Assembly: GCA_020832495.1 (NCBI GenBank)
Contig: JAFIEP010000024.1
Coordinates: 1 to 64,000, forward strand
Direction: 5' to 3'
Origin: Acidimicrobiia bacterium
GTDB taxonomy: Bacteria; Actinomycetota; Acidimicrobiia; Acidimicrobiales; Acidimicrobilacustridaceae
Length of the DNA: 64,000 nucleotides
The notes below the pieces were generated by a model. The model saw only the letters and a program-made list of their open reading frames with translations. It searched no databases and was not told the origin of the DNA. Every line of letters begins with the position of its first letter. Position 1 is the stretch's first letter. The translations under genes and the position numbers were made by a program. Below, piece after piece: positions 31,748 to 37,758 of the stretch.

Positions 31748-31762
31748 GTTCGTCCACTCAGC
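31743..31762. terminator. Bidirectional hairpin between convergent genes
   Basis: GCTGAGT (31743-31749) and ACTCAGC (31756-31762) form a perfect 7-bp stem with a 6-base loop, overlapping the TGA of the FhuF-like gene and the stop of the hydrolase on the other strand. No U-tract follows. Confidence 0.5.
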
Positions 31763-32963
31763 TGGGCACCACCTCGTCCAGCCAGTCCAGGATCCGCTGG
31801 TTTCGCAGTCCCAGCGCCACCGGTTCGCAGTGCCACGACGCCCCTTCCGCCTCGGTGAACTCGAGGAGGTGACGCTCGTCGGTCGTCAGGGCCTCGAAGA
31901 GGGTCTGGGACTGTCCGGGCCAGAACTGTTCGTGTTCGGGGCTGGTGACCAGGGTCGGGCAGCGAATCTGGCCGATGGTCTCGGCGTCGAGTCGGTAGTC
32001 GCGCAGCGACCGGTAGAGCTCCCAGAAGGAGTCGAGACAGAACGGCCGCGCCCGCACGGTCAGGACGTAGCGGGCATCAGGGTCGGCCTGCATACCGAGC
32101 TCCATGGCCATGTCGAAGCCGCCCTGTGAGGCCGGGTCGTCGAGCAGGTCGATCATCTCCTGGGGGAGGTGGGCCAGCCACGAAGCACCCACGTCCACCA
32201 CCCCCGGGTCGGCCACGATGGCCGCCAGGCGATGCTCGAACGCCGCGGCGCGCGGCACCCAGTAGCCCCCTTGGCTGTTGCCGATCACCGCGAGGCGTCG
32301 GGCGTCGATCTCCGGGCGGGTCTCGCACCAGTCGACCACCGCGGAGATGACCACTTCCCAGTCGGGACGGAACCCGACACCCAGGCGATGCAGCGTGGCG
32401 TTCTGACCCGGTCCGTCGAAGGTGAGCGCGTTCCAGCCACGGGCCAGGGCGTCGGCGGCGCCCATGGCCCACATGTCGGTGACCGGACCGTCGCTGCCGT
32501 TGTTGCACACCAGCGTGCGTCGGGCCACCCCGTCATCGGCGGCGCACCACAGGTAGCCCTCCATCTCGACGTCGCCCATGGGGATACGCACCGGCTGCGC
32601 GGGTGGGTCGAGGCGCACGGCGGCGCGGTCCCACAGGTCCCGGTGCCACGACCACAGCGCACCGAAGGCGTCGGCATCGTCGGTGGCGTCGGCCAGGAAG
32701 GAGGCCTTGTTGGCATAGTTGGCGGCACGCAACCAGAGGTCGCGGGCGCTGCGGCCATGACCGGCGGCGTCGGCGGCATCGCCGGCGTGCTCGAGCCGCT
32801 GGGCCAGGGCCGTCCACGCCGCCACCCAACCCGGCCGGTCGCCTTCGACGATGCCGGCCACGGTGGTGAGCACCTCCCCCACCTCCGACAGACCACTACG
32901 CGCCTGCCCGAGAGCGATGAGCGTCTCGAACTGGAGGCCGTCATCATCGAAGAAGCGCTGCAC
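31758..32963 (-). CDS. Alpha/beta hydrolase, DUF1100/FrsA-like
   Basis: A 401-residue hydrolase. A helical N-terminal region of about 130 residues precedes the hydrolase core, with nucleophile Ser in GNSQGG (about residue 223) and a late Asp/His pair (SPEHEQF, then GASWHCEP). This layout fits the family that includes 2,6-dihydroxypseudooxynicotine hydrolase and C-C bond hydrolases. No signal peptide. GTG 32963 has TACGGT six bases upstream. Substrate unknown. Confidence 0.82.
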   Translation of the reverse strand: MQRFFDDDGLQFETLIALGQARSGLSEVGEVLTTVAGIVEGDRPGWVAAWTALAQRLEHAGDAADAAGHGRSARDLWLRAANYANKASFLADATDDADAFGALWSWHRDLWDRAAVRLDPPAQPVRIPMGDVEMEGYLWCAADDGVARRTLVCNNGSDGPVTDMWAMGAADALARGWNALTFDGPGQNATLHRLGVGFRPDWEVVISAVVDWCETRPEIDARRLAVIGNSQGGYWVPRAAAFEHRLAAIVADPGVVDVGASWLAHLPQEMIDLLDDPASQGGFDMAMELGMQADPDARYVLTVRARPFCLDSFWELYRSLRDYRLDAETIGQIRCPTLVTSPEHEQFWPGQSQTLFEALTTDERHLLEFTEAEGASWHCEPVALGLRNQRILDWLDEVVPS

Positions 32964-33853: not shown

Positions 33854-33880
33854 ACGGGACAGGTGTGGGAAACTGCGCAG

Positions 33881-34924
33881 GTGACGAACGGCGGCATCCA
33901 TCCGGCACTCCCCGCCGAGTCGGACGGGGACGATGGTCTCGACCCCTGGCTGGTGGGCGTCGGCCTGGTGGCCACCGCGGGCCGTGCCAGTTGGACGGCG
34001 GCGCGCCTGGCCAGCGGCCCGCCGCGCTGGTTCGGACGCCAGGTGGCGTCGAGTGTGACGGCACTCGACCGCCGAGGCCCCCGACTGCTGCCGCGCCTCG
34101 AAGCGGTGGGGGCCCGCGTGGTCAGCGACACCGCCGAGCAGGCCGGCGCAGCCGCGAGCAGCACTGCTGACGCCGTTGCCGTGGCCGCCGTGAGCACCGT
34201 GGATCTCGACTTGGTGCTCACCACCGCCATCGACGGCCTCTCGCCCGAGGCCTTGGGCGGTCTCGTCGAGCAGGTGGTCTCGTCCATCGAACCGAGCCAA
34301 CTCATGGGCCTCGTCGGCGCCATCATGTCCGAGTTGCCCTCCGAGGCCCTCGCTCCCCTCGTCGCCAAGGTCATCGCCGACATTCCCTCCGAGGCGCTGG
34401 CCCCGCTGGTGGCATCGGTCATCGGCGAGATCCCCACCGAGGCGCTCGGACCGCTGGTGAACGGGGTCGTCGGCGAACTCGATCTCGTGGAGGTGGTGAA
34501 CGTGGTGCTCGGCACCACCGACATCGAGGCACTGACCACTGCCGTGTTGCGACAGGTCGACATCGAGGCCGCCGTGGCCAACGGTCTGGACGAGGTCGAC
34601 CTGCAGCGCCTGACGTTGGCCATCATCGGGCGGCTCGACCTCGGCCCGGTGGTTGATGCCGCCCTCGACACCGTCGACGTGGCCGAGTTGGTGCGCAGCC
34701 AGGGTCTGTCGGAGCTGGTGCTGTCCGAGACGGGCGGGATGGCGGCCGACACCCTCGGCTTCGTTCGCGACCAGGCAGCCAGCGGCGACGAACTGGTCAC
34801 CCGGGTGGTGAACCGGCTGCTGCGTCGCCGAGGCGAACGCGCCGAGGTGCAACCGGTGGTGGTGCTACCCCTCGAGCTGGCGCCGGCGGACAAGCGATCC
34901 GGGGACGGCAACGGTGACCGCTGA
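33881..34924 (+). CDS. Uncharacterised protein with ~18-residue helical repeats
   Basis: A 347-residue protein I do not recognise. After a short N-terminal region with a possible amphipathic or membrane-proximal helix (residues 20-55), residues about 115-285 consist of tandem helical units of 16-20 residues. Three are near identical: each begins P(S/T)EAL(A/G)PLV, with a hydrophobic tail ending in I or L. Further diverged units read DIEALTTAVLRQV and DLQRLTLAIIGRL. The pattern predicts a solenoid or coiled hydrophobic surface. No catalytic motif. It overlaps the RDD gene by 11 bases, suggesting joint expression with a membrane protein. Confidence 0.7.
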   Translation: MTNGGIHPALPAESDGDDGLDPWLVGVGLVATAGRASWTAARLASGPPRWFGRQVASSVTALDRRGPRLLPRLEAVGARVVSDTAEQAGAAASSTADAVAVAAVSTVDLDLVLTTAIDGLSPEALGGLVEQVVSSIEPSQLMGLVGAIMSELPSEALAPLVAKVIADIPSEALAPLVASVIGEIPTEALGPLVNGVVGELDLVEVVNVVLGTTDIEALTTAVLRQVDIEAAVANGLDEVDLQRLTLAIIGRLDLGPVVDAALDTVDVAELVRSQGLSELVLSETGGMAADTLGFVRDQAASGDELVTRVVNRLLRRRGERAEVQPVVVLPLELAPADKRSGDGNGDR

Positions 34925-35462
34925 GGTGATCCAACCCGGGGTGGACGCCGCCACTGCAGCGGACATCGCCGGCCGCAACCGGGCCGGGCGCCCGGCCGGT
35001 GTCGTGACCAGGGGCGCCGCCTATCTGGCCGACGTGGCCCTGGTGACGCTGCTCTACAGCGCCGGAGTGGCGGGCGCCGTCTTCGTCCTGGCCACCGTCA
35101 CCGGGGGCGTGGTGGAACCCGAGGAACTGCCGTTCATCGCCGTGACCATCGGCTGGTTCCTGTGGTGGGTGATCTACTTCGGGGCGAGCACCGCCCGGTT
35201 CGGCGCAACCCCGGCCAAGGCGCTCTTCGGGCTGCGCGTGGTGCGGCCCGACGGTCGCCGGGTGGGGGTGCTGCGGGCAGGCATCCGGGCGTTCGCCGTA
35301 CCGCTGACGCTCTCGTTCACGGTTGGAGTGGACGCCCTGGTGGCCGCCGTCTCGTCGCGCCGGCGAGCCCTCCACGACCGACTGTGCGGCACCGTCGTGG
35401 TCTACGACTGGCCTCGCACCGTCCAGGCCCGTCGCATCCAGGTGGTGGACGTCGTCGAGTAG
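34914..35462 (+). CDS. RDD family membrane protein
   Basis: A 182-residue protein with the RDD signature (about residues 25-150): GVVTRGAAYLADVALV, containing the Arg and Asp, then two hydrophobic segments, and the HDRLCGTVVVYD ending. RDD proteins are short integral membrane proteins of mostly unknown function, some acting as Na+(K+)/H+ antiporters. GTG 34914 lies within the end of the repeat-protein gene. Confidence 0.85.
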   Translation: MTAEVIQPGVDAATAADIAGRNRAGRPAGVVTRGAAYLADVALVTLLYSAGVAGAVFVLATVTGGVVEPEELPFIAVTIGWFLWWVIYFGASTARFGATPAKALFGLRVVRPDGRRVGVLRAGIRAFAVPLTLSFTVGVDALVAAVSSRRRALHDRLCGTVVVYDWPRTVQARRIQVVDVVE

Positions 35463-35970: not shown

Positions 35971-37758
35971 TCAGTCAAGGATGTCGCCGGCGAACCGTCG
36001 CACGAAGGCGGCCATGGCCTGGCGGCTGGTGTCGTTCGTCGGGCGGAAGGTGCCGTCGGGGAACCCGGTGGTGATCTCCTCTTGGGCCATCCACGAGATG
36101 GCCGTGAAGAACTGACTCGTCTCGGGAACGTCGGAGAACGTGGGGAACCCAGGCGCGGGTTCGGGCTCGCCGTCGAATCGCCAGAAGAACGCCGCCATGG
36201 CCTGACGGGAGATCGGATCGGCCGGACGGAACGTGCCGTCCTCGAACCCGGTCACCACGCCCTCCTGGGCAAGCCAGGAGATGGCGGCGTGGAAGGGGTT
36301 CGACTCCGGGACATCAGGGAAGGTGGGGAAGCCCGGCTCGGGGTCAGGGCTGTCGGCCAGTCGCCACAGGAAGGCGGCCATGGCCTGGCGGGACTGCGCC
36401 ACCAGCGGCCGGTAGGTGCCGTCGGGCCACCCCGTGGCCACGTTGTTGTCGGCCGCCCACTCGATGTCCCGGCAGAACGGGTTGTCGATCGACACGTCGA
36501 TGAAGGGCTCGCAGACCAGCGGCGGAACCTCGCGCTCCACCGCACCGATGTCGCACGCCGGACCCTGGGGACGCTCGACACCCCGCTGGTCGGTGTTCAC
36601 GTCCTCGACGCAGTCCTCGACAGCGTCGACGAGGGGGCTGTCCTCGTCGGGGAGCATCGTCGGGGTGACGCCCCCGTTGTCGCCCAGGTCGCCCAGGCCG
36701 GGATCGTCGCCGTCCACCACGTTGGTCGGCCCCTCGAACCCGCAGGTGCCGTCGGTGGCCCAGTTGTAGGTGCTCGCCGTCGCGGCCGAGCCGAGGTTGC
36801 AGCCGTTCAGGCCCTCGTAGTCACCGAAGACCGAGCCGGTGCTCACCAACCCGCTGGTGGGCGCCAGGTGTGCCCCCAGGTTGGCTTCGTTGTCGACGAG
36901 CGTGACGTAGGTGAGTTCGAACGAGCCACCGTCGCGCCACAGTGCGCCACCGCTGTTCTTCTCGGCGGTGTTACCCACGAACGTGCTGTTGGTGACCTCC
37001 ACCGGCCCTGCACCGGCGATGGCGCCGCCGTGATCCGCAGCCGTGTTGCCGACGAACGTGCTGTTGGTGACCTCGAAGCGCCCGTCGCTGGCGCTGAACA
37101 GGGCCCCGCCCCGGCCGAGGAGGGCATCGGCGCCGTCCGCCCGGTTGTTCTCGAAGTACGAGTCCGCCACGAAGAACGACGAGGCGAAGATGGCACCGCC
37201 GCTGCGGAAGGAACTGTTGTCGACGAAGGTGGAGCGGAGCACCTCGACGTCCCGAGCGAAGATGGCGCCACCGAGGTTCCCGGCGCCACGGTTGTTCGTG
37301 AAGATGCTGTCGATCACCGTCAGCAGGCCGTCCTGGAAGTTCGTGTCGTGCACCAACGCGCCACCGGCGGCGTTCGACAGCCCGTTGACGAACGTGAGGT
37401 TCATGACGGTCAGTTCGGTGTTGCTCACGTACAGGATGCGCCCGTCCTCCTGTCCGTCGAGGGTGGATCCGCTGCCGTCGATGGTGAGCGGTGCGTCGTT
37501 GTTGTAGGCGATCTCGGCACCCACCTCGATCTCGAAGGGTTCCTCGAAGGTGATGAGCACGGGATCGTCGGCGGAAGAGGCGGTGGCGATGGCCGCTCGG
37601 AAGCTCCCCGGACCGCTGTCGGCGTCGTTGGTGACGAGCACTTCGACCACGGTGGCTCCGGCTGGGACCGGCGCCACCCCACCGAGCGCCAAGAGGCTGA
37701 GCAACAGCGCCAGCGCGGACAACGGGGCAACGGAACGACGAACACTTCTGCGACGCAT
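35971..37758 (-). CDS. Secreted beta-helix protein with three C-terminal SLH repeats
   Basis: A 595-residue exported protein. Signal peptide at residues 1-35 (cleavage near AGA). The mature start VVEVLVTNDADSGPGSFRAAI is a CSLREA-like motif, followed by a right-handed beta-helix (about 70-330) whose coils carry repeated NSTFVGNTA(A/E) and GGAIFA units. Residues about 415-590 hold three S-layer-homology repeats, each with F(x)DV, IxWxAxxxxxTG(F/W)xDGT(F/Y)RP and SRQAMAAFxWR. These should bind a cell-wall polymer non-covalently. ATG 37758 has GGAGGA 8 bases upstream. Confidence 0.88.
   Translation of the reverse strand: MRRRSVRRSVAPLSALALLLSLLALGGVAPVPAGATVVEVLVTNDADSGPGSFRAAIATASSADDPVLITFEEPFEIEVGAEIAYNNDAPLTIDGSGSTLDGQEDGRILYVSNTELTVMNLTFVNGLSNAAGGALVHDTNFQDGLLTVIDSIFTNNRGAGNLGGAIFARDVEVLRSTFVDNSSFRSGGAIFASSFFVADSYFENNRADGADALLGRGGALFSASDGRFEVTNSTFVGNTAADHGGAIAGAGPVEVTNSTFVGNTAEKNSGGALWRDGGSFELTYVTLVDNEANLGAHLAPTSGLVSTGSVFGDYEGLNGCNLGSAATASTYNWATDGTCGFEGPTNVVDGDDPGLGDLGDNGGVTPTMLPDEDSPLVDAVEDCVEDVNTDQRGVERPQGPACDIGAVEREVPPLVCEPFIDVSIDNPFCRDIEWAADNNVATGWPDGTYRPLVAQSRQAMAAFLWRLADSPDPEPGFPTFPDVPESNPFHAAISWLAQEGVVTGFEDGTFRPADPISRQAMAAFFWRFDGEPEPAPGFPTFSDVPETSQFFTAISWMAQEEITTGFPDGTFRPTNDTSRQAMAAFVRRFAGDILD

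Follow-up and report, generated by a model that had tools for sequence, protein, structure and literature searches.

A repeat protein of short predicted helices encoded beside, or fused to, one branch of RDD membrane proteins in Acidimicrobiia and other Actinomycetota

Results

The gene pair and its repeat array

The window is the whole 64,000-nucleotide stretch of DNA that was analysed, from an Acidimicrobiia bacterium (assembly GCA_020832495.1, contig JAFIEP010000024.1). It contains two adjacent genes on the forward strand, one for a repeat protein and one for a membrane protein of the RDD family (PF06271). Their features are as follows.

33881-34924, forward strand: open reading frame of the repeat protein, 347 aa, GTG start (ORF and translation)
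33881-34201, forward strand: N-terminal region, residues 1-107, Ala-rich, partly helical in the model (translation, AF2)
34202-34240, forward strand: 13-residue unit DLDLVLTTAIDGL (unit parse; AF2 helix 109-117)
34241-34480, forward strand: five 16-residue units, residues 121-200 (lag-16 z 10.9; 48-bp DNA repeats; one predicted helix per unit)
34481-34675, forward strand: five 13-residue units, residues 201-265, each opened by Asp (z 4.7-5.4 at lags 13, 26 and 39; one predicted helix per unit)
34676-34702, forward strand: 9-residue unit DVAELVRSQ, of the length typical of the family (unit parse; family lag-9 signal)
34703-34846, forward strand: conserved cap, comprising a short strap (GLSELVLSETGG) and one long helix with an LLRRR end (profile A1; AF2 helix 277-318)
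34847-34924, forward strand: C-terminal tail and stop codon, with an 11-base overlap with the RDD start if this is at 34914 (ORF list, translation)
34914-35462, forward strand: RDD membrane protein, 182 aa, putative partner subunit (PF06271, E 2.6e-21; module-linked subfamily, 153.5 bits to profile A5)

Started from the GTG further upstream at 33863, the repeat protein would have 353 aa. The 11-base overlap reported in a preliminary description of this DNA is borne out provided that the RDD gene starts at GTG 34914; with the in-frame GTG at 34926 as start, the two genes would lie 1 base apart. The RDD protein matched PF06271 with 76.8 bits (E 2.6e-21), above the curated cut-off of 24.1 bits. 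Hydropathy over 19 residues peaks at 1.8 in the repeat protein, which gives no clear transmembrane helix. No known family was assigned to its N-terminal residues 1-107, which scored 15.6 bits against the N-terminal regions of split relatives, 14.4 bits of this being composition bias.

The array was parsed by eye, and the resulting string and lengths were checked by script. Its order is 13, 16x5, 13x5, 9, cap, comprising five 16-residue, six 13-residue and one 9-residue units. Pro-Ser/Thr opens three of the five 16-residue units and Asp opens the other units. Protein autocorrelation relative to 500 shuffles gave period 16 over residues 119-200 (z 10.9) and period 13 over residues 199-275 (z 4.7, 5.4 and 4.8 at lags 13, 26 and 39). 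At the DNA level a 48-bp tandem repeat is present in three copies, of which the other two are 73% and 65% identical to the reference copy, and TRF reported 78% matches. The preliminary description noted at least three near-identical units of 16-18 residues, which correspond to the 16-mers PSEALAPLVAKVIADI, PSEALAPLVASVIGEI and PTEALGPLVNGVVGEL, and advised repeat detection. The DNA repeats and the autocorrelation confirmed the repeat itself but not the range of lengths: the long units number five, each of exactly 16 residues.

Two further genes of the window were recorded. On the minus strand, 35971-37758 encodes a 595-aa protein with three C-terminal FxDVPxxxxFxxAIxWxAxxxxTGFxDGTFRPxxxxSRQAMAAFxxR-like units, which we take to resemble S-layer-homology repeats; similar units are encoded at another locus of the same genome (L182). 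Also on the minus strand, 31758-32963 encodes a 401-aa alpha/beta hydrolase weakly like UilS-type N-acyl-homoserine lactonases (36 bits, cut-off 400).

Comparison with known families

Pfam, NCBIfam, PHROGs and PDB sequences were searched with the repeat protein and gave nothing convincing. The best library matches were phrog_17570, a family label without a function (E 0.02), and the ALTTAQ repeat (PF20080; 11.7 bits, E 0.22), which was rejected as being below its curated cut-off of 26.4. DUF3618 (PF12277) was not matched by the window protein at E up to 1. Among the relatives, DUF3618 was weakly matched by 6 of 26 A3 members (best E 2.9e-4), with weak matches to some other families besides, and by 0 of 8 re-scanned at E 0.01; the new scan of these eight against Pfam at E 0.01 matched no family, and DUF3618 stays a weak candidate for the relatives. 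A solenoid of the TPR, HEAT or ARM type was also considered, and Pfam lists none at E up to 1 for the window protein or the 26 A3 members. The earlier statement that no family is recognisable thus holds in full for Pfam and NCBIfam, and almost in full for PHROGs, where the weak phrog_17570 match stands; no profile in these three libraries assigned a known repeat family.

TPR, HEAT and ARM units contain two or more helices in about 30-45 residues. The present array resembles these alpha-solenoids in its predicted tandem helical units and as a possible protein-binding arm, but differs in having a single predicted helix per 9-, 13- or 16-residue unit. The module is undescribed among the matches listed from the open-access PMC literature. 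A plasmid search gave no match.

Predicted structure

Structure prediction, also advised in the preliminary description, was carried out with AlphaFold (AF2). The model of the window protein had a mean pLDDT of 69.5 and a pTM of 0.33, with ten-residue means of 60-85 across the array. One helix is predicted in each of the 12 units, separated by breaks of two to four residues (once seven), and the cap is predicted as one long helix (277-318). In the N-terminal region helices were placed at 22-44, 49-65, 69-88 and 95-106, with pLDDT <50 at 1-16 and 89-106. A fused relative from Phytoactinopolyspora limicola (L104) gave a pLDDT of 76.2 and a pTM of 0.60. Its array (residues 30-116) was modelled as ten 6- or 7-residue helices joined by two-residue turns, followed by a short helix, the cap helix (129-166), a linker and an RDD domain with long helices at 209-242 and 253-274. 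The RDD part of this model is confident and the array of 9-mers lower (ten-residue means of about 60-71). Because confidence is middling in both cases (pTM 0.33 and 0.60), the stacking of the helices stays a proposal.

Foldseek with the window model returned 325 matches at E up to 10 and none at 0.001 or better. The best VIA match had a Z of 9.6 (midnolin-proteasome, 97 residues, rmsd 2.9), in a range common for helical models, for which Z under about 13 may mean little. With a model this weak, similarity to a known fold could have escaped detection.

A separate lead came from the RDD part of the fused relative (L104:3932-5041, model residues 202-345), which in this one model resembles the membrane domain of Pex2/Pex10/Pex12 (PDB 7t92). 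Foldseek gave probabilities of 0.96, 0.93 and 0.47, E of 0.04 to 0.92, TM-scores of 0.21-0.32 and rmsd of 10-12; VIA gave a Z of 9.0 to 7t92_A (rmsd 3.5, 131 residues). Z 2 was reached in VIA by 3 of 68 compared chains, and 7t92 was the sole entry listed. The sequence of this RDD gave no match in the PDB. Human FAM8A1, a component of the HRD1 ERAD ligase, contains an RDD domain. In the parts seen of a review of the Pex2/Pex10/Pex12 peroxisomal ubiquitin ligase, RDD is not mentioned.

Distribution of the module and of its unit lengths

A first contig scan with the window protein alone as query gave no match, and as sole query against 41 related genomes it matched seven, its own included. A cap-only profile (A1) was built from six aligned cap segments, one of them the window's own. 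It matched 44 of 197 genomes of the class and 14 of 246 genomes of a phylum sample (six of these already in the class sample); with this profile the module was not found in the other 153 and 232. The relatives include Acidimicrobiia, Nocardioides, Kribbella, Phytoactinopolyspora, Streptomyces, Nocardia, Gordonia and Nitriliruptoraceae. The few MAGs labelled Myxococcales, Acidobacteria or Chloroflexi that carry the module may be binning errors.

Most relatives have 9-residue units (VDVDALLDR and similar). Among 113 module proteins, z exceeded 4 at lag 9 in 101, at lag 13 in three and at lag 16 in the window's protein only. Family-wide anchor spacings were 531 at 9 (17.4 in shuffles) and 17 at 13 (13.2 in shuffles). 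By a crude parse the unit number has a median of 7 in fused and 6 in split proteins and reaches 20. Two relatives from the window's taxonomic family show longer units: the array of L094, a longer stretch of the L002 locus, reads 9x7, 13x3, 9, 13, 9, cap, and that of L039, the same locus as L003, reads 13x4, cap. Lengthened units, 13 then 16, are thus seen in this taxonomic family, with the order of events inferred. Because 13 is rare family-wide and 16 is confined to the window protein, the 9-13-16 series is claimed for this taxonomic family only. The word "novel" in the preliminary description therefore holds in part: the module is unnamed and its longer units (13, 16) are special here, but it is widespread in Actinomycetota, mostly with 9-residue units.

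Array and RDD can each occur apart from the other component. In the window's taxonomic family, L097:6045-6686 encodes mostly 13-residue units on a 12-kb contig in which no RDD was found. L158:2154-2786 and L159:3794-4411, from Acidimicrobiia MAGs, encode 9-residue arrays whose match to the cap is weak (19 bits), and no RDD was found at either locus; the L159 contig stops just past the array, so that of these two only L158 can be judged. From L097 and L158, the repeat can exist without an RDD in reach. Conversely, six cap proteins with an unlike N-terminal region and no visible repeats (L086, L087 and L089-L092) are encoded directly upstream of an RDD, and the array is therefore not essential to the pairing.

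Coupling of the module to RDD

At 45 of the 46 cap loci in the class sample, the window included, an RDD domain lies directly downstream on the same strand, fused to the module in 14 and encoded by the next gene in 31. In 25 of the 31 split pairs a candidate RDD start (ATG or GTG) forms an ATGA/GTGA start-stop overlap with the module gene, and in 24 of these no other candidate start lies nearer. The window pair differs from this type in its 11-base overlap or 1-base gap. At eight further loci from the phylum sample RDD was present at seven (three fused, four split) and one cap match was not recovered. Two cap matches, L093 (G149, E 3.6e-4) and L076 (G408, E 3e-4), were lost with the rebuilt profile and were counted as misses. 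A second cap row of G005 shares the reading frame of the first, and the two were counted as one.

Among loci from the window-protein search, module and RDD are separate genes at L002 and L004, and no RDD lies within reach at L005. Of the 102 loci that passed in a search with an RDD-containing query, 80 were tallied as 51 fused, 26 split and three without RDD in reach; this tally is biased, as the query contained RDD, and of the last three L140 and L159 end at a contig edge and only L158 can be judged.

The reverse search was made with an RDD-only profile (A5), with at most 20 first-pass candidates scored per genome and matches at E 1e-12 or better listed. It gave 46 matches in the class, from 185.3 to 82.7 bits, and a next best of 67.6 bits. 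Pairing by eye identified 45 of the 46 as module loci of the cap search; directly upstream of the 46th (G101:C272) the contig ends. As A5 was built from module-linked RDDs, it is the gap in score, not the threshold alone, that carries the argument. The earlier guess that the repeat protein is an RDD partner is supported from both directions, with RDD adjoining or fused at 45 of 46 cap loci and the module at 45 of 46 subfamily RDDs; the first of these counts also answers its call to examine neighbour conservation in acidimicrobia.

The pairing has no regular third member among the genes compared. With ORFs of at least 130 aa passing a codon-position filter, no neighbour cluster occurred in more than 8 of 84 loci. 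The larger clusters came mostly from close kin, for example Acidimicrobiia or Kribbella, and one 8-locus cluster was an artefact made up of frames that run antisense to the repeat. The window's upstream MOSC gene and downstream pyridoxamine-oxidase-like gene were absent among the 20 neighbour clusters listed. Four other RDD genes of the same genome had no cap match.

The RDD subfamily and its history

An RDD domain was found in 154 of the 197 class genomes. After removal of 32 duplicate, 8 short and 7 upstream-truncated rows, a tree was made from 176 RDD domains over 142 columns by a quick method that left many forks unresolved. A single branch (SH-aLRT 90) separates the 114 module-linked rows from the 62 rows without the module. 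These 62 are a non-random set, comprising top PF06271 matches, own-genome paralogues and 40 stretches without an adjoining module match. Within the 114, switching between the fused and split states takes 14 changes, and starred branches force at least 7 of these. A single coupling followed by repeated fusion or fission is the pattern expected of a stable protein complex.

The window's RDD is placed in this subfamily by its 153.5 bits to A5 (at least 82.7 being taken) and by the module directly upstream (33881-34924); its A5 and A1 scores are partly high by construction, because its RDD and cap are seeds of the profiles. Its neighbour in the tree is L002, from the same taxonomic family (support 74), whose repeat partner combines units of 9 and 13 residues. 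L003, also of that family, joins next with support 0 and is only sixth nearest by branch distance.

Residues R9, D16 and D131 of the RDD domain are present in the window and in about 100% (rounded) of both groups, and R101 in 97%; the window partner thus keeps the four Arg/Asp positions conserved in PF06271 on both sides of the branch. Unlike the other PF06271 members compared, its subfamily has the upstream or fused repeat module together with Pro106 (73% versus 0%), Ser108 (89% versus 19%; Thr in the window) and Arg127 (82% versus 15%). In 96 of the 114 module-linked RDDs, the 30-residue stretch that follows TM2 contains more Lys and Arg than the loop between TM1 and TM2, from which the N-terminus, and hence the module, is probably cytoplasmic.

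Discussion

The function of RDD proteins is unsettled in the literature. An RDD protein of Halobacillus andaensis was reported as a Na+(Li+,K+)/H+ antiporter (PMC5996927). According to PMC7568657, the RDD protein SppI of Bacillus subtilis binds and inhibits the protease SppA, its loss or excess left salt and alkali resistance unchanged, and it was purified at an apparent octamer size. PMC12419801 treats RDD as a domain without an assigned role and with a predicted cytoplasm-facing binding site within the membrane. SppI is a parallel in that an RDD protein there also acts with a gene neighbour as a membrane complex, but its partner is a membrane protease and that of the window RDD is a helical-repeat protein. 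RDD is likewise joined to extra modules in VanZ-RDD and further fusions (PMC12419801), and the portion of that account seen does not mention the repeat module.

RDD domains and helical repeats were both known already; within the scope of these searches, what is new is how tightly the two are paired and that the one-helix units come in graded lengths. Genome comparison establishes the pairing, its persistence through fused and split states, the repeat anatomy and the conserved cap, while one helix per unit is a model prediction. Module and RDD branch very probably function as a single complex. Taken as a whole, the data are best explained, and with somewhat better than even confidence, by a membrane complex of two proteins, RDD and the repeat protein, in which the latter is the cytoplasmic arm, with a putative scaffold role. 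The two proteins would be made together and would bind each other by way of the cap; in the fused relatives a short linker connects the cap to the first RDD transmembrane helix. The units would stack as a solenoid rod of one helix per unit on the inner face of the membrane, its length (unit number) and width (helices of about 7, 11 and 14 residues) differing between lineages. Such an arm would most likely recruit or space a cytoplasmic partner, so gating RDD activity at the membrane; candidate activities are cation exchange, membrane-ligand binding and control of a different membrane protein. In the window's taxonomic family the units would have grown from 9 to 13 to 16 residues, about one helical turn per step.

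Four other readings were weighed. The strongest, to which we give about one chance in five, is that the module is an oligomerisation tail through which RDD proteins self-assemble, recruiting nothing else. The apparent octamer of SppI (PMC7568657) and the persistence of the repeat-less cap in L086, L087 and L089-L092 are consistent with it, but it leaves the strongly variable unit numbers (medians of 7 fused and 6 split, up to 20) unexplained.

The units could instead be amphipathic helices coating the inner leaflet beside RDD, in the manner of apolipoproteins or phasins, with no solenoid. Hydrophobic helices (GRAVY 0.91 for the 16-mers, 0.64 for the 13-mers) next to a membrane protein, and a weak match of one of 26 relatives to the Pfam phasin model (E 0.039), speak for this; the charges, with K/R to D/E of 1 to 11 in the 16-mers and 4 to 15 in the 13-mers, would be unfavourable at an acidic inner leaflet. 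Unlike continuous 11-residue helices, the units of 9, 13 or 16 residues here, with an initial Asp or Pro-Ser/Thr, interrupt the helix every time, and the AF2 models break it at each unit. We consider this reading improbable, a little more so than the oligomerisation tail.

Less probable again, and in our view distinctly so, is that the Asp-rich array (DxD in many 9-mers) buffers or senses cations for an RDD antiporter. VDVDALL is common among the 9-mers and the Halobacillus andaensis protein was reported as such an antiporter (PMC5996927). In the window protein, however, only the first 13-mer has a second Asp, and both Asp are missing from the 16-mers, yet the RDD pairing persists; the first Asp would fit a helix N-cap, replaced by Ser/Thr in the 16-mers.

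That the repeat gene is part of a fused protein whose frame has been broken, or a functionless repeat grown by slippage, is very unlikely: the 48-bp repeats do point to fairly recent tandem duplication, but the split arrangement accounts for 31 of the 45 paired loci in the class, and in 25 of these start and stop overlap by 4 bases, cap and RDD are conserved, and the amino-acid period is kept at 65-73% DNA identity to the reference copy.

Returning to the cytoplasmic arm, a stronger form of it is that the module is a new repeat class, a single-short-helix solenoid with short turns and a basic unit of 9 residues, widened by turns from 9 to 13 to 16 in one family and serving as an obligate, length-tunable arm of RDD. 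We regard this as possible but hold it tentatively, at about one chance in three.

A partner fused or gene-coupled to one RDD branch, and seen from both directions, is a handle on the role of RDD. With the module as handle and the partners of the arm identifiable, the role of the module-linked RDD branch becomes testable. The graded units are, in addition, a natural experiment in which a helical repeat changes its width while the array is kept.
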